NCBI RefSeq assembly: GCF_000012885.1
Contig: NC_007498.2
Span: 1,922,001-1,986,000, forward strand
Source: Syntrophotalea carbinolica DSM 2380
GTDB lineage: Bacteria; Desulfobacterota; Desulfuromonadia; Desulfuromonadales; Syntrophotaleaceae
Direction: 5' to 3'
DNA: 64,000 nt
Made by a program: the position numbers and the translations under genes. The notes below the pieces were generated by a model. The model saw only the letters and a program-made list of their open reading frames with translations. It was not told the DNA's origin and did no database searches. Of this stretch, positions 7,459-45,894 are shown piece by piece; position 1 is the stretch's first letter; each line of letters opens with the position of its first letter.

Positions 7459-7532
<74 letters not shown>

Positions 7533-7624: not shown

Positions 7625-9655
7625 TCACGGTTGGCGCAACGCCCGGATAAGTTGCACATACTGATGCTCCTCAAAGGGGATTTCGTAAAACAGTGCACGC
7701 AAAAAGCCGTGTTCCGATCCATCCAGTGCTCCGTATAATTTATTTTTGAGGCGTGTCACAGGGTACATCTCGGCTGAGTTGAGTATGGAAGCAACTCTGG
7801 AGTTAAACGGTTCACTCAAGGGCTCCTCGAAGAGCAAAGTCAGCGGTCGGGCATTGGAGAGATCTTCTTTGCCGACGGCCTTCATGACGCGATCGACATC
7901 GGTGTTATCGCTATCCCGTGCGTCAAAGATTTTTTCAAGAATTATAGCCTTACGATAAAAACCGTCTTCGGTACCTTCCGATTCACGAATCACATTGAGA
8001 TACGTATAGGCATTTAACATAATGGCGGGAATTTCCTTGCCAAGATGCGCCACCATCGGATTAAAGGGCGTGTTGTGATTGGCCAGCCACATATCGACCA
8101 CTTTGGATTGTTCCAGTCGTGCGGCAATAGGGGTAATGTATCGGAAGTAATCTTCAACCCGACCATCCAGGTTCGATTGATATGCCAACTGCAAAATACT
8201 CGTAACATCAGCAGGAAACAATTCGACAGCCTGCAGCTGATATGCAAAAAACAGGGCTTTTGCTTCTACGCCGGTGCTATATTCGGAAAGCTGCTGGTAT
8301 AAGTCGGCAAGCTCACGGGCGGCATAAGCCGCCAGGAAATAGGCATTGTCCGGAACGATGTCCTGATCGATACGCGCATGCCTCTGAAACAGAGCACAGT
8401 ACTTCAATAGCGGGCTCTCTACGGGGAACAGCGTTTCTATTTCATAGGCTTTGCGACGGGACTTGTAGTAGTCGGCAAGCATAATGGAAAGTTTACCGGT
8501 GGCATCCCACAGGCGATGCATGGAAATCAGGTAATTGCCGCGCTTGTAATATCCGTCTGCGGTAAAATTGCCGTTTGGAGCGGCATGAAGTGCCAGCAGG
8601 TCGAACAGTTCAATACCTTTATCCAGGTACGCAACGGCCATACCCGGCAGTTTTTCGAAGAAGCGCGTCGTGGCAACAGGATCGTTGGGATCGATCATGC
8701 GCCTGGTGACATAGGTCAAAAAACCCATGTACTGTCCCATAATCGTCGCCCTGCCCTTATTCGTGTCCGCCCAATAATAGGCTAACTGATAAAATTTACG
8801 TGCCGCATTGAATTTGGCGACCAGTTCATCGGGCTCCGTTGCCGCTTCGAAATCATTGCGATTGGCCGTCGCTTCAAGAAAAGCCACGGCAAAGTTAAGA
8901 TTGTAATTATCCGAGGAAACTCCGTCCATCCTCTCGACAATGGCTTTGACGAGATTTTTATAACCATTTTCGAGAGTAAGCTTGTTCTCGATGGACAAAA
9001 TCACTGTGCCCAGGGATGACAGATTGGGCATTTCCTGTTCGATAATCGCTCTACGGATAACCAGATGGGCAATGTTTTCATACAAGTGGGGCAACTCTTT
9101 AACAAAACCCACTTTGGCACGCGTGTCGTCCATCAGAATGTTATCGACTTCCTGTTTCAGCACGGTATTTTCCCACAAGGAATATACCGAGGCGACAAAA
9201 CCGGGACTGTCTTTATCCGCCATACGCCGGTACGCGGTCAGCAGATGCTTCCAAAACGCTACATCTCCCTGCGGATCCTCATCCGGGAACACCGACAAAG
9301 CGGTTTCGGCGTTGTCCAGATGCACCATTTCGTCGTTTGCCAGATACAGACAGAATTCCGCGAGAGCCAGGCGGTAATACTGGCTTAATGGCTTGCCGAC
9401 AAAGAGACTATCCTGTTGCAGGCGCCCATCGGGACCGGTGCCGGACGTGAGAGTATCGATCAATCCATCGCGGTAAGTTTCGAGACTGCTCCCGTACTCC
9501 ATGCTTTTTTCCTGCAAAAGACTTTGCAGGTCGCTTTTGGGATACCAGCTGAAACGATAAGCAACATCCAGCAGATTGTCCCACTGAGCTGCACCAGCCA
9601 GGGCCGGCAAAACCAACAGCACTCCAAGAACGATTGCCAATTTCATTGATTTCAT
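7625..9655 (-). CDS. Exported 676-residue protein of unknown function, last gene of the ExbB/ExbD/TonB-like operon
   Basis: I do not recognise this protein. The ATG at 9655 has GTGAGG about 8 bases upstream, follows the TonB-like gene by 16 bases and gives a clean signal peptide (MKSMKLAIVLGVLLVLPALA, cleavage after the following GA). The open frame extends 57 codons further but that part overlaps the upstream gene and is not protein-like. The mature protein has no further membrane segment and is rich in Leu, Tyr, Asp and Arg; it looks all-alpha and repeat-like, with TPR-like stretches such as LAYQSNLDGRVEDYFRYI (about 520-540). As last gene of a proton-channel/TonB-like operon it is probably the periplasmic or outer-membrane-facing component of that machine. 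Function unknown. Confidence 0.75.
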   Translation of the reverse strand: MKSMKLAIVLGVLLVLPALAGAAQWDNLLDVAYRFSWYPKSDLQSLLQEKSMEYGSSLETYRDGLIDTLTSGTGPDGRLQQDSLFVGKPLSQYYRLALAEFCLYLANDEMVHLDNAETALSVFPDEDPQGDVAFWKHLLTAYRRMADKDSPGFVASVYSLWENTVLKQEVDNILMDDTRAKVGFVKELPHLYENIAHLVIRRAIIEQEMPNLSSLGTVILSIENKLTLENGYKNLVKAIVERMDGVSSDNYNLNFAVAFLEATANRNDFEAATEPDELVAKFNAARKFYQLAYYWADTNKGRATIMGQYMGFLTYVTRRMIDPNDPVATTRFFEKLPGMAVAYLDKGIELFDLLALHAAPNGNFTADGYYKRGNYLISMHRLWDATGKLSIMLADYYKSRRKAYEIETLFPVESPLLKYCALFQRHARIDQDIVPDNAYFLAAYAARELADLYQQLSEYSTGVEAKALFFAYQLQAVELFPADVTSILQLAYQSNLDGRVEDYFRYITPIAARLEQSKVVDMWLANHNTPFNPMVAHLGKEIPAIMLNAYTYLNVIRESEGTEDGFYRKAIILEKIFDARDSDNTDVDRVMKAVGKEDLSNARPLTLLFEEPLSEPFNSRVASILNSAEMYPVTRLKNKLYGALDGSEHGFLRALFYEIPFEEHQYVQLIRALRQP

Positions 9656-9671
9656 TGAACGAGCCTCACTT

Positions 9672-11072
9672 CTAGGGATTAACGCATTGTATAGCAGTAC
9701 GAAGCGCATCGCACCTATCGCCAAAATTTTCAGGATTATAAACATCAACCTGCAACGTGTAGGCGTTCTCAGGGTATTTGTAAAAGAAAACCATATTTCG
9801 GATGGAACATTTCCCTGCAGTATCAAGCTCGGTGGCCAACCTGGTTTTCAAATCCAGTTCCGCATCGGGATCGATACAGGCCTTGAGTTGGTTGAGGCTG
9901 ATCATCCGCGCAGGGTCGTAGTGACCTTCTTCGACACCGTTGAAATCGATCGCGCCTGAGGCCAGACCATCTCCGACAGGAGCGGAATTCGACAATTCGG
10001 TACCACCCAGCGCTCCCGAAGCGGTTCCGGAACCAACGAGAACCGGCACATCGACATCTTCGGCTCCGCCAATAAGACCGACCCTTTCGCCTACACTGCG
10101 GGCGGCGTAATCGGACGGTGCCACAGCGGCCGTTCCCGGATTCCCTGCCTCGGCAACATTTCCGGCAACTCCAGATGCACCGCGAATGGCGACGGCGGGA
10201 CCGCCCGTTGCCGGCACGAAGGTTTTAGCGGTGCCACTACCCCGCATACTTTGAGTGGCATGAGAAACTTTAAGATTGCGTGATACACCCCCACTCGAGG
10301 GAAGATCGACCTCCGTTGCGGATCCGTTCGATAACCTTGGGGCACTGCGTGTGGGCATAGCCGAAGATGCCGTTTGGGACGTTTGACTGTAACGACCTTG
10401 CAGCGAGGAAGAACTTATTTCGAGCTCATTCGCCGAGCGCGCAGCAAAGGATGCGTCAGGCCGTCCGGCAGGCATCGGTCCCGAAGTCGGCGCGGCGTCA
10501 CGGTATGTACGGGCCACGGTGCGTGGTCCCGGCAGCAGCGTGTCGTTCGTCGCCTTTTTGGGCAAGGTTACCACTTGCCGAGGCCTGGCCACAGGTACGG
10601 ATTCAGGCCGCACAACCACCACGGCCGGCGGTGTTTTAACAGGTTTGGGTAACGGTAAGGATCGCGGCTTTTGCACTGTTTTGACCGGCTCGACCGGAAG
10701 TTGCGCCGGAGGTGGCATGACGACATCGACAGGTGCGGGTTCCGGTTGAGGCTCCTCAAGTACCATGGCAAGGATTTCAAGGGGGGGATTGTCCTGCTGC
10801 TCCATAGCTGGCAGCAAAAAGCTGGCAAGGCCGAACATCATAATCAGGAACAAGGATGCGGCGACCACGGAAAATATCTGACCCAGCGGAAAATCCCGCT
10901 TCAGCAGACCTGCCCAAACGCCCCAGAATCCTACCGAGGCGGAATGCAGTCGCTGTTCGTGAGCGACAACCTGCGCACGCCCTCTTCGGTCCGCATAGAT
11001 ATCCTGGGTAGCGCGCGGCTGGGGAATGTTGCATACGCCCCAACCATAAAGACTTTCCTTCAGAAAAATCAT
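9672..11072 (-). CDS. TonB-like energy-transducing protein
   Basis: 466 residues. About 60 cytoplasmic residues precede one transmembrane segment (about 62-90, FSVVAASLFLIMMFGLASFL). A Pro-rich stretch (about 95-170, with PEPAPVDVVMPPPAQLPVEP) and a long Ser/Gly/Ala linker (about 180-370) follow, then a small C-terminal domain (about 385-466). That is TonB/TolA architecture: anchor, periplasm-spanning rod, terminal binding domain. The terminal domain has four Cys (in KACIDPD, GKCSIRN, DRCDALR, IQCVNP), unusual for TonB and suggesting two disulfides; it lacks the YP motif of classical TonB. The start ATG overlaps the ExbD-like stop (ATGA) and has GGAGAG upstream. The long cytoplasmic N-terminus is also atypical. 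Homology to TonB is by architecture and neighbourhood, not clear sequence match. Confidence 0.65.
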   Translation of the reverse strand: MIFLKESLYGWGVCNIPQPRATQDIYADRRGRAQVVAHEQRLHSASVGFWGVWAGLLKRDFPLGQIFSVVAASLFLIMMFGLASFLLPAMEQQDNPPLEILAMVLEEPQPEPAPVDVVMPPPAQLPVEPVKTVQKPRSLPLPKPVKTPPAVVVVRPESVPVARPRQVVTLPKKATNDTLLPGPRTVARTYRDAAPTSGPMPAGRPDASFAARSANELEISSSSLQGRYSQTSQTASSAMPTRSAPRLSNGSATEVDLPSSGGVSRNLKVSHATQSMRGSGTAKTFVPATGGPAVAIRGASGVAGNVAEAGNPGTAAVAPSDYAARSVGERVGLIGGAEDVDVPVLVGSGTASGALGGTELSNSAPVGDGLASGAIDFNGVEEGHYDPARMISLNQLKACIDPDAELDLKTRLATELDTAGKCSIRNMVFFYKYPENAYTLQVDVYNPENFGDRCDALRTAIQCVNP

Positions 11073-11545
11073 GGTCCGGACTCTCCAGCCTCAGTTTCCG
11101 TTTGCACGACAGTACGGGTGCCATCCGTCCAAACTCTGGCAATAACGCCGGCAGCGTATAAAAAGTCCTGGCTCAAGGAACTCTTTTCCGGTAGAAGCAT
11201 GGGACGGATATTACGCTCCTTGAGCGCTGTCAGGGCCGGCAACAAGTCTTCCTTGGCAAGGATCTGCGCATCGCTGGCAGGGGTGGTTTTACCAACGCCC
11301 GCCTTGATCAATCGGTAAGGCGTGGGGTGCTTTTCCGACACAGCATACACCTGCAGTTCCCAAGCTTCCTGAACTTTGGCGATGGGAGCCATCTTGCCGT
11401 GCTCCGGCACCACCGGCACATCCATTTCAGCCAGTTTAATAGTAATATTGTCTGGCGCACTCGGAATCAGGCTGAGACTGATGAGGAGCAAAAAGGCCAG
11501 ATCGGTAAAGGAAAAAAGCCAGGTTTGGCCATTCTTCATTTTCAT
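11069..11545 (-). CDS. ExbD/TolR-like biopolymer transport protein
   Basis: 158 residues with the short cytoplasmic tail, single membrane segment and periplasmic domain of ExbD/TolR. The membrane segment WLFSFTDLAFLLLISLSLIP carries the Asp (residue about 16) that is the conserved proton-path residue in ExbD and TolR. The periplasmic part is longer than its recognisable core and diverges from classical ExbD. Start chosen at the ATG 11545 (K-M-K-N-G follows) with GGTGA about 5 bases upstream; a TTG further upstream is possible. It sits between the ExbB-like and TonB-like genes and overlaps the latter by 4 bases. Confidence 0.72.
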   Translation of the reverse strand: MKMKNGQTWLFSFTDLAFLLLISLSLIPSAPDNITIKLAEMDVPVVPEHGKMAPIAKVQEAWELQVYAVSEKHPTPYRLIKAGVGKTTPASDAQILAKEDLLPALTALKERNIRPMLLPEKSSLSQDFLYAAGVIARVWTDGTRTVVQTETEAGESGP

Positions 11546-11559
11546 AACGGTCACCAACC

Positions 11560-12231
11560 TTATTTATCGGAATCGTCTACTGCCAACTGTGCAATGGCCG
11601 CCAACCCCTCATCAATACGCCGGTGCGCAAGGGCATAAAATACCTTGCGAAGAAATTCCAGGAAGGTGAAACAGATAAGAGCGATAAAGGTTGTATAAAG
11701 AGCTGTGGCAATCCCGGCTACGGTTATCTCGCTGTTGAGGGTTCCGGAATTGGCAAGAAAATGGACAACCATACCGATAATGGTACCGATAAAACCCATG
11801 GGAGGCATAAGATTCGCCATCATCCCCACCGGATCCAGAAATTTCTCCTCGAAGTAACGCTCGCTGAACTGAAAAGCGGCATCACGAATAAAGGCATCCG
11901 GCGGGATAACCTTATCCGCGGTGCCACGTTGCTGCTCCTGTTCATAATGCAATTTGGTACGGGCAAAGAACGAGGCCGAGATCAATGCCAACGGCATTTT
12001 GATATCGGTATTTAAGTTGTACAGCGATTGCCGTCCTGAAAGCTTTCGGAAATCGTAGAAAGCGAGAGCTCGAAACGACTGAAAAGACTTGATAAGTGCA
12101 AACCCAAATATGCAGGCCATGATCATATAAACAATGAGTTGCAACAACCCTGAGTAGCTATTGATCAGGTAAGTCAGAACATCGATAATTCCGTTAGACA
12201 ATACGTTGAAAATGCTTTCTTGTTCTGGCAT
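11560..12231 (-). CDS. MotA/TolQ/ExbB-family proton channel
   Basis: 223 residues with three membrane segments: about 22-45 (LLQLIVYMIMACIFGFALI), about 135-160 (NLMPPMGFIGTIIGMVVHFL) and about 168-192 (GIATALYTTFIALICFTFLE). The second and third carry the family signatures GxIGTxxGM and IATALYTT. The family forms a pentameric channel whose proton flow drives an ExbD/TonB-type partner. ATG at 12231 has AGAGGTG 8 bases before it. The ExbD-like gene follows after 14 bases, so co-translation is expected. Which process is powered is unknown; it is not the tol-pal operon (no tolB, pal, ybgC). Confidence 0.82.
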   Translation of the reverse strand: MPEQESIFNVLSNGIIDVLTYLINSYSGLLQLIVYMIMACIFGFALIKSFQSFRALAFYDFRKLSGRQSLYNLNTDIKMPLALISASFFARTKLHYEQEQQRGTADKVIPPDAFIRDAAFQFSERYFEEKFLDPVGMMANLMPPMGFIGTIIGMVVHFLANSGTLNSEITVAGIATALYTTFIALICFTFLEFLRKVFYALAHRRIDEGLAAIAQLAVDDSDK

Positions 12232-12288
12232 ATACATCACCTCTGATATAGTTCCGCAACAACCGATCCGCGCGTGACCTAAGAGTAA

Positions 12289-12834
12289 TTAATTTGGAGT
12301 AAAAAGTTTGGCCTCAAGGCTGGCAGCGCCTTCGGCTAGACGGGTACAGCCCATCTCTGTCGGGTCCACAACCGCGTTTTGAATGGCGGTATCCTTTTTA
12401 TAGCGTTTGTTGAACAACTTTAAGAGCTTCCTGGCACGGCTATCCTGCCCGGTTTCTTCATAGATAAAAGCACTCAGGAGATTGACTTTGGCGACCTCAA
12501 GACGTGTCTCCACATGCTGCTGAGCCTCTGCGTCCTGAAGAATCGGCATGGCATAGAGTTCTACATATTTTTGCACTTCACAGCGAAAGCCCTGACCGTT
12601 ACAGGGTTTCTGGGCCTCTTCCGGAGTCATGCGCCGATGGGTATCCAACTCCAAAGCTGTCAGGCGAAAAACCTTAAGGTTCTGCCTGACATTTTCCAGA
12701 TAAAGTTTTTTCTGTGGGATAGACATGTGCCCCAACACAGGTGCTTTAGGCCAATCGGCTTTGTTACAGGCACAGCAACCGGAAAGTGCCAGAATCAGAA
12801 CCGCCACCCCCAGCAAAAGAGCTTGTTTTCTCAT
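12289..12834 (-). CDS. Putative lipoprotein, first gene of the ExbB/ExbD/TonB-like operon
   Basis: 181 residues. The N-terminus is a lipoprotein signal with lipobox LSGC (Cys20) followed by CACN; the residue after Cys20 is Cys, not Asp, so outer-membrane sorting is possible by the usual +2 rule. The mature part is hydrophilic, probably helical, with three further Cys (KPCNGQGFRCEV, MGCTRL). I do not recognise a family. ATG at 12834 has AAGGAG 6 bases upstream; a TTG five codons earlier is less likely. The ExbB-like gene starts 57 bases after it. Confidence 0.7.
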   Translation of the reverse strand: MRKQALLLGVAVLILALSGCCACNKADWPKAPVLGHMSIPQKKLYLENVRQNLKVFRLTALELDTHRRMTPEEAQKPCNGQGFRCEVQKYVELYAMPILQDAEAQQHVETRLEVAKVNLLSAFIYEETGQDSRARKLLKLFNKRYKKDTAIQNAVVDPTEMGCTRLAEGAASLEAKLFTPN

Positions 12835-13053: not shown

Positions 13054-13920
13054 TCAGCGATCCAGGGGGCACCCGACAGCGTTTACCGGTGTGCCGAAGG
13101 GCGTTTCGGGACAATGGTCAAGCGCATCTTCAACGCCATCCGCATCGCGGTCGCCTCGCGTTGGTGCAGGACACCCTGCCGCGGTTACGGTCACCCCCTC
13201 AGCCGTTTCCGGACAGAGGTCGCGATAATCCGGAACCCCATCGCGATCGGCATCCCTGGAGCACCCACGGCGAGTCACGGCAACTCCCGGGGGAGTTTCC
13301 AGGCACTCGTCCACCGCATCCAACACGCCATCGCCATCCGTATCGAGATATTCCCGCGTTTCCTGAGGCGTACCAAGCTGGAAAACCACCCCTGCCGAAC
13401 ATACCAAGTTCCAATATGTGTCAGACTGATGAGCGGAATCACCGACATTGATGTCCAGGGTGGGACGGATGTCACCCCGCAAGGCCAGGTTTTCTGTAAT
13501 GAAATACTTGACGCCGCCGCCAAAATTCAGCTGGAGATCGTCATCTGAACTCTGCCCTTCCGGCTTGATGAACAGGGCACCGGCACCGCCGGCAAGATAG
13601 GGAACCAGACGCCCGAAGGGACGGAAATGGTATAGAACATCGACGTGTGCATCCAATAAATGAACATCCCGTCCTACATATTCTGAAGGCGAGTAAGCCA
13701 GGACCCCTTCGACACTCCAAATCTCGGAAAAATTATAGCCGACGGCAAGGCCGGCGTTGATCGAATCGTCGAGCGCCTGGTTACCTTCGACCAGGCGACC
13801 ACCGACATATGGCGAGACAGTAAAGACATGGTACTTATTTTCAGCCATTGCGGTACCAGACAGCGTACTGGTGAATACGAACAAAAAAAGAGCATAAAAC
13901 AACAAGTTCTTTTGACGCAT
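13054..13920 (-). CDS. OprF-like outer-membrane beta-barrel protein with TSP3 repeats but no OmpA domain
   Basis: 288 residues: signal peptide (about 1-26, ending GTAMA), an eight-stranded OprF/OmpA-like barrel (about 27-190, with FGGGVKYFITENLALRGDIRP), then three thrombospondin type-3 calcium-binding repeats (about 200-288; DTDGDGVLDAVDECLETP, DADRDGVPDYRDLCPETA, DRDADGVEDALDHCPETP). In OprF-type proteins an OmpA C-terminal peptidoglycan-binding domain normally follows such repeats; here the frame stops right after GCPLDR. The next 200 bases in other frames show no OmpA motif. ATG at 13920 has AAGGAG 9 bases upstream; the longer open frame (to 14238) is not protein-like. Probably a porin or stress protein that cannot bind peptidoglycan. 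Confidence 0.8.
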   Translation of the reverse strand: MRQKNLLFYALFLFVFTSTLSGTAMAENKYHVFTVSPYVGGRLVEGNQALDDSINAGLAVGYNFSEIWSVEGVLAYSPSEYVGRDVHLLDAHVDVLYHFRPFGRLVPYLAGGAGALFIKPEGQSSDDDLQLNFGGGVKYFITENLALRGDIRPTLDINVGDSAHQSDTYWNLVCSAGVVFQLGTPQETREYLDTDGDGVLDAVDECLETPPGVAVTRRGCSRDADRDGVPDYRDLCPETAEGVTVTAAGCPAPTRGDRDADGVEDALDHCPETPFGTPVNAVGCPLDR

Positions 13921-14209
13921 AACCATGATCTCCTTGGATCCCATATAAAAGCCTTCATTGCACAACAAACCGACAGCCTCTTGTCTGACCTGACAAATGC
14001 TTGAAACAGTATAAGGTTTCACCTCGACGGATCGACCATGTAATAGCATACACATGAGACCACTTAAAGAAAAAAAACCTGGAATGCGGCACGGATAGGT
14101 ATAACCGAAACCTCTGCCTGACGGTGGCCTTGAGCACATAACCGTAGCAATAACCACACCACTAAAGAAGGGTAGCTGAAAAGATTTGGCTGTCGCGACA
14201 CTACGAAAG

Positions 14210-45380: not shown

Positions 45381-45457
45381 TGGCGGGGCTGACGGGACTC
45401 GAACCCGCGACCTCCGGCGTGACAGGCCGGCGTTGTAACCGACTCTACTACAGCCCC
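45381..45457 (-). tRNA. tRNA-Asp (GTC), copy 1
   Basis: 77 bases with encoded CCA; acceptor GGGGCTG/CAGCCCC, anticodon stem CCGGC/GCCGG with loop CTGTCAC gives GTC. Identical to the copies at 45639 and 45818. Confidence 0.95.
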
Positions 45458-45475
45458 CGATTTTGCGTCTTTAAA

Positions 45476-45551
45476 TGGTGGGCGAAACAGGGATCGAACC
45501 TGTGACCCTCGGCTTGTAAGGCCGATGCTCTCCCAGCTGAGCTATTCGCCC
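45476..45551 (-). tRNA. tRNA-Val (TAC), copy 1
   Basis: 76 bases with encoded CCA; acceptor GGGCGAA/TTCGCCC, anticodon stem TCGGC/GCCGA with loop CTTACAA gives TAC. Identical to the copy at 45734. Confidence 0.95.
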
Positions 45552-45558
45552 ATTTTTC

Positions 45559-45578
45559 AGTCCGGGAATCCCCGGACT
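45559..45578. repeat. Hairpin upstream of tRNA-Val copy 1
   Basis: AGTCCGGG (45559-45566) and CCCGGACT (45571-45578), perfect 8-bp stem, 4-base loop, no T run. Possibly a processing signal in the array transcript. Confidence 0.5.
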
Positions 45579-45604
45579 TTGACCTTCGGTGGTACAGTAA
45601 AAAA

Positions 45605-45623
45605 GCACCGCGGCCGGCGGTGC
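45605..45623 (-). terminator. Internal terminator within the tRNA array
   Basis: GCACCGC / GCGGTGC stem with a 5-base loop, followed on the minus strand by TTTTTT. Nearly the same stem as the final terminator at 45341-45365, which marks it as part of a duplicated unit. Confidence 0.75.
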
Positions 45624-45638
45624 CATTCACCTTTTCAA

Positions 45639-45715
45639 TGGCGGGGCTGACGGGACTCGAACCCGCGACCTCCGGCGTGACAGGCCGGCGTTGTAACCGA
45701 CTCTACTACAGCCCC
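45639..45715 (-). tRNA. tRNA-Asp (GTC), copy 2
   Basis: 77 bases, identical in sequence to copy 1, anticodon GTC, encoded CCA. Confidence 0.95.
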
Positions 45716-45733
45716 CGGTATTGCGTTTTTAAA

Positions 45734-45809
45734 TGGTGGGCGAAACAGGGATCGAACCTGTGACCCTCGGCTTGTAAGGCCGATGCTCTCCCAGCTGAGC
45801 TATTCGCCC
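45734..45809 (-). tRNA. tRNA-Val (TAC), copy 2
   Basis: 76 bases, identical to copy 1, anticodon TAC, encoded CCA. Confidence 0.95.
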
Positions 45810-45817
45810 GTGTATAA

Positions 45818-45894
45818 TGGCGGGGCTGACGGGACTCGAACCCGCGACCTCCGGCGTGACAGGCCGGCGTTGTAACCGACTCTACTACAGCCCC
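45818..45894 (-). tRNA. tRNA-Asp (GTC), copy 3
   Basis: 77 bases, identical to copies 1 and 2. First gene of the array in transcription order; only 8 bases separate it from tRNA-Val copy 2. Confidence 0.95.

Follow-up and report, generated by a model that had tools for sequence, protein, structure and literature searches.

Layout and sequence features of the five genes

The window analysed here is a stretch of 64,000 nucleotides (positions 1922001-1986000) of the genome of the anaerobe Syntrophotalea carbinolica DSM 2380, a single contig of 3,665,893 bases. Within it, five adjacent genes are encoded on the minus strand between 12834 and 7625, separated in gene order by 48, 2, -4 and 16 bases. 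The first (12289..12834) encodes a small, exported and helical lipoprotein of 181 aa with the lipobox LSGC, and it is followed by genes for an ExbB/TolQ-like proton channel subunit of 226 aa (11560..12240), an ExbD-like protein of 162 aa with one transmembrane helix (11069..11557) and a TonB-like rod of 466 aa (9672..11072). The last gene (7625..9655) encodes an exported protein of 676 aa, named P676 here, which carries a Sec signal and is predicted to form an all-helical, TPR-like alpha-solenoid. A tRNA-Cys gene (7459-7532) lies after the five cassette genes. Upstream of the lipoprotein gene, at 219 bases, sits another minus-strand gene (13054..13926), which encodes an outer-membrane barrel (OMP_b-brl, PF13505, E 1e-15) with thrombospondin-3 repeats (TSP_3). 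Elsewhere in the window (45381-45894), tRNA-Asp and tRNA-Val genes alternate in tandem, in three and two copies, respectively.

The five-gene set described in the first-pass annotation (lipoprotein, channel, ExbD-like protein, rod and 676-aa exported protein) was present in full, and chance open reading frames were ruled out because relatives keep the orthologues in identical order. Its reading as an envelope cassette of the ExbB/ExbD/TonB type was supported by the channel, which matched the MotA_ExbB family (PF01618) with an E value of 6e-8, exceeding the gathering score. An earlier statement that the proton residues of the motor are intact held for the most part. In the alignment of orthologues the channel keeps both threonines of TM2 and TM3 (T153 and T184), and the aspartate of the ExbD-like protein (D19 in the annotated frame, motif WL.F.D..FLLL) was invariant in 17 sequences, but the TM3 glutamate of E. 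coli ExbB (GIAEALLATA) is replaced by threonine in the window channel (GIATALYTTF). The ExbD-like protein had no match to Pfam ExbD (PF02472) at E <= 1; its assignment is based on its position, its topology, the transmembrane aspartate motif and the fact that the equivalent gene of a homologous cassette (locus L075) encodes a true ExbD (PF02472, E 3e-15). A PADLOC search, which includes the ExbB-motor defence system Zorya, gave no match at E <= 0.01.

According to the alignment, the rod is built from a cytoplasmic N-terminus with the motif LYGWG, one transmembrane helix, a Pro-rich periplasmic span and a C-terminal tip. At the loci that we call Geobacterales-type (families f22, f23 and f116, a label that we infer from kinship and genome features), the rod N-terminus carries YGHG or a close variant in place of LYGWG. 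The SHLS/His transmembrane motif of TonB and TolA was absent from the window rod and from most orthologues, and was present at a single locus, L039, where the rod starts with a TonB-like S-x-x-x-H helix and the contig ends upstream of it. A TonB origin of this N-terminus was considered and dropped, as a phmmer search against the PDB gave no match.

The tip (9675..9947, minus strand) comprises about 80 ordered residues. Inspection of 19 aligned tips revealed four cysteines in every one, at positions that shift by a few residues. The AlphaFold2 model of the tip is a small mixed alpha/beta domain of moderate confidence (pLDDT 77), for which structural searches with Foldseek and VIA-align yielded no row above Z 2.8 and no confident match. 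Neither the rod nor its tip matched the TonB C-terminal family in Pfam or NCBIfam, in agreement with the previous description of a four-cysteine, TonB-like tip that lacks the classical motif.

The AlphaFold2 model of P676 is an all-helical solenoid (pLDDT 75, with low confidence at 165-249). Its best structural matches (Foldseek, VIA-align) were helical repeats, the top one being a designed repeat at Z 14.1, which is about the level reached by unrelated helical models. As had been proposed for P676 and the lipoprotein, no family was found for either of them, nor for the tip, at a useful score in Pfam, NCBIfam or PADLOC. Sequence searches among solved structures did not detect any relative of P676, the rod or the lipoprotein, and the plasmids and viral contigs searched held no relative of P676. 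Inspection of the lipoprotein sequences showed that the lipobox is missing from some Geobacterales-type orthologues.

Distribution and conservation of the cassette

The distribution searches covered the window's own phylum, Desulfobacterota, and detected P676 in 18/136 genomes at the level of the order, in 38/277 at that of the class and in six of the 395 genomes drawn from the phylum. The gene order was the same as in the window in relatives wherever the contig was long enough, with identities of 39-83% for P676 and 51-92% for ExbB, and three other families of the order (L038, L040 and L041) possess all five genes with different flanks. The suggested search for P676 beside ExbB/ExbD-like genes elsewhere returned the same arrangement in several families of the order and in the Geobacterales-type families. 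Pairwise distances of the five proteins across 12 loci were correlated (r = 0.91-0.97; 2000 permutations of the labels never reached such values), a correlation that is partly due to the common ancestry of the genomes.

When 271 genomes of the class were searched with a profile of the rod tip, it was detected in 37, all of which (37/37) also have P676, encoded adjacent to it. The sole genome with P676 and no tip (G040) has its P676 gene cut by the contig end. The rod tip and P676 therefore co-occur near-perfectly.

Some loci showed peculiarities of their own. P676 is split over two frames in L033 (G004, around 11,090) and the rod in L034 (G007, around 8,700-8,890), by a sequencing error or a real disruption in each case. 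A second, longer P676 paralogue of about 860-900 aa is encoded directly after P676 in the Geobacterales-type loci L073 (around 9,830-12,517), L074 (9,662-12,253), L108 (3,949-6,594) and L109 (11,478-14,069). Finally, P676, the rod tip and LapG were each found twice in genome G462 (contigs C3 and C15, locus L161), through duplication or an assembly artefact.

Outer-membrane barrels and Lap adhesins beside the cassette

L031 and L046 retain a barrel gene of the window type next to the cassette; L032-L037 have none there. Almost all Geobacterales-type loci are adjoined by a barrel gene with an AMIN and/or an OmpA domain, both of which bind peptidoglycan in other proteins. Pfam identified AMIN in L073, L108, L109 and L110 and OmpA in L113; the barrels of L074, L111, L114, L115 and L153-L161 are similar to the L113 protein, and the contig of L112 ends too soon. 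An outer-membrane barrel is thus likely to be an accessory or sixth component of the cassette.

A further neighbour was found in the genus g258, where 11 genomes show the order TolC, barrel, cassette and LapA-like giant adhesin, with LapD and LapG nearby (for L156, the stretch examined does not reach TolC). The LapA retention module was recognised by NCBIfam in the three adhesins tested (3/3), and the NCBIfam matches to LapG and LapD beside one adhesin (L113/L119) were below the equivalog cut-offs. LapG was among the matches in 11 of the 12 g258 genomes with P676, and four others of the genus (G457, G461, G467 and G468) were among neither the P676 nor the LapG matches. Because the genes are linked, this co-occurrence represents one island and not an independent association. 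A general link to Lap adhesins was rejected outside this genus: LapG was not found in most other P676 genomes nor in the window's genome, so that coupling to an adhesin cannot be general. One g258 locus, L160 (G470), holds a divergent cassette, whose P676 shares 55% identity with the L113 protein, and has no LapA nearby, which suggests a different origin.

A different motor in two related loci

In two loci from another Desulfobacterota family (L075 and L076), recognisable homologues of the lipoprotein, the rod tip and P676 are accompanied by a different motor, consisting of an ExbD (confirmed by Pfam in L075) and two ExbB proteins, one of which carries a fused ExbD-like domain. The rods of both loci lack the YGxG motif in the N-terminus, although it is not certain where the L075 rod begins. 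This absence is what one would expect of a rod that docks on its motor through the N-terminus and on the transducer module through the tip. Together with the TonB-like N-terminus of L039, the swap suggests, from sequence comparison, that the rod N-terminus may follow the motor while the tip follows P676.

Proposed role of the cassette

TolB is encoded in another part of the S. carbinolica genome (3,485 kb), close to an ExbB/TolQ-like match, and inspection of open reading frames placed Ton-type ExbB/ExbD/TonB genes at about 1.0 and 2.8 Mb, near large receptor-like genes. With Tol-Pal and Ton systems encoded separately in the genome, the cassette would be an additional machine. Neither TolB nor Pal was found in the cassette or among its neighbours in the window, and no TonB receptor lies beside the cassette in the loci examined or among the ten neighbours that were scanned in the window, bearing out the earlier view that this is neither a tol-pal nor a siderophore locus.

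The likely and best-supported class of mechanism is force transduction across the envelope, driven by protons; what is moved, we infer. The ExbB-like and ExbD-like proteins would form an ion-driven motor in the inner membrane, on which the N-terminal region of the rod would dock. The rod would span the periplasm, and its tip, whose four cysteines probably form two disulfides, would engage P676 and the small lipoprotein beneath the outer membrane. This module could act on the barrel encoded by the adjoining gene or on a peptidoglycan-anchored partner and, through that partner, on structures at the cell surface, for example a LapA-type adhesin in genomes that encode one next to the cassette. We consider it fairly probable that the cassette is a proton-driven trans-envelope force transducer of the Ton, Tol and Agl-Glt kind, with its own transducer module and an outer-membrane or peptidoglycan-anchored partner, because of the conserved gene order, the correlated divergence of the proteins, the PF01618 channel, the conserved motor residues, the joint occurrence of tip and P676, the exchanged motor, and the barrel and Lap contexts. 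Against it stand the assignment of ExbD by motif and position, the rods mostly devoid of SHLS/His, the absence of the barrel in much of the window's family and the moderate confidence of the tip model. More tentatively, at somewhat less than even chances, the cassette may represent a distinct class of machine, apart from Ton, Tol and Agl-Glt, defined by an obligate pair of tip and P676 that accepts different motors and serves outer-membrane, peptidoglycan-anchored or adhesin partners.

The closest competing explanation, although an unlikely one, is a tether cycle like that of Tol-Pal, in which a barrel bound to peptidoglycan would have P676 or the lipoprotein pulled off it by the rod, controlling envelope cohesion and not any cargo. 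Both systems combine a proton motor and rod with a lipoprotein, a periplasmic helical protein and a barrel or OmpA-domain partner nearby; the AMIN or OmpA domains of the adjacent barrels would fit such a cycle, and the lipoprotein and the helical P676 could act as Pal- and CpoB-like parts. However, the cassette differs in having neither TolB nor Pal, the genome has a TolB and Tol locus of its own, and a presence in 38/277 genomes of the class is patchy, unlike that of a housekeeping tether.

It is less probable still, and rather doubtful, that the cassette is a divergent member of the Agl-Glt/Nfs systems that moves or positions surface polymers or adhesins in a gliding-like manner. The parts list of the 'core complex' (Luciano 2011, PMC3169522) parallels that of the cassette, with the lipoprotein CglC in the outer membrane, the barrels GltA/GltB, the 673-aa periplasmic TPR protein GltC (P676 is a helical protein of about the same size), the motor AglRQS and the TonB-like GltG/GltJ (PMC3169522, PMC4488436), but the cassette has one ExbD instead of two and homology was detected in the channel only. 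When profiles of P676, the tip and the ExbD-like protein were compared with the equivalents of GltC/GltD/GltE/GltG and AglQ/AglS from ten related loci, no match was obtained (probabilities of 0.1-4%), whereas the channel reached 36% with AglR; this comparison, which covered the equivalents from related loci, has limited sensitivity, since even ExbB/AglR, a true pair, reached only that 36%. The lipoprotein profile scored 58% against GltE, but over 22 residues of signal peptide only. Moreover, the core complex is present separately in the same class, and in genome G198 the two systems occur together, each at its own locus. Hence, neither the family searches nor this comparison gave a clear match of the two family-less proteins to a described TonB-, Tol- or gliding-type system.

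Finally, it is very improbable that the cassette is a Ton system dedicated to energising a TonB-dependent receptor encoded at an unlinked site: a Ton system shares with the cassette the channel family, the ExbD-like Asp helix, the ExbB-ExbD-rod order, a Pro-rich single-pass rod and, in L039, the S-x-x-x-H transmembrane motif, but the cassette has a four-cysteine tip without a TonB_C match, rods mostly without the transmembrane His, two extra exported proteins and no receptor beside it, and its tip always travels with P676 and not with receptors.

The proposed force transducer also resembles the vWA-type force transducers (PMC12204202), which are likewise uncharacterised, motor-driven transducer operons with a helical (TPR) partner, but no vWA domain was found in the cassette and SHLS/His is missing from the window rod. 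According to the same survey of 2025, many machines that couple the proton gradient of the inner membrane to the outer membrane are still to be discovered (PMC12204202). Few such machines are known, and the cassette is small, self-contained and conserved; judged by its sequences, the five-gene set recurs in many related bacteria, and no machine of this type described so far matches it. The swap in L075 and L076 separates the motor from the transducer module, so that target recognition by the rod becomes directly testable, and the Lap adhesins encoded beside the cassette in one genus provide a concrete function to test.
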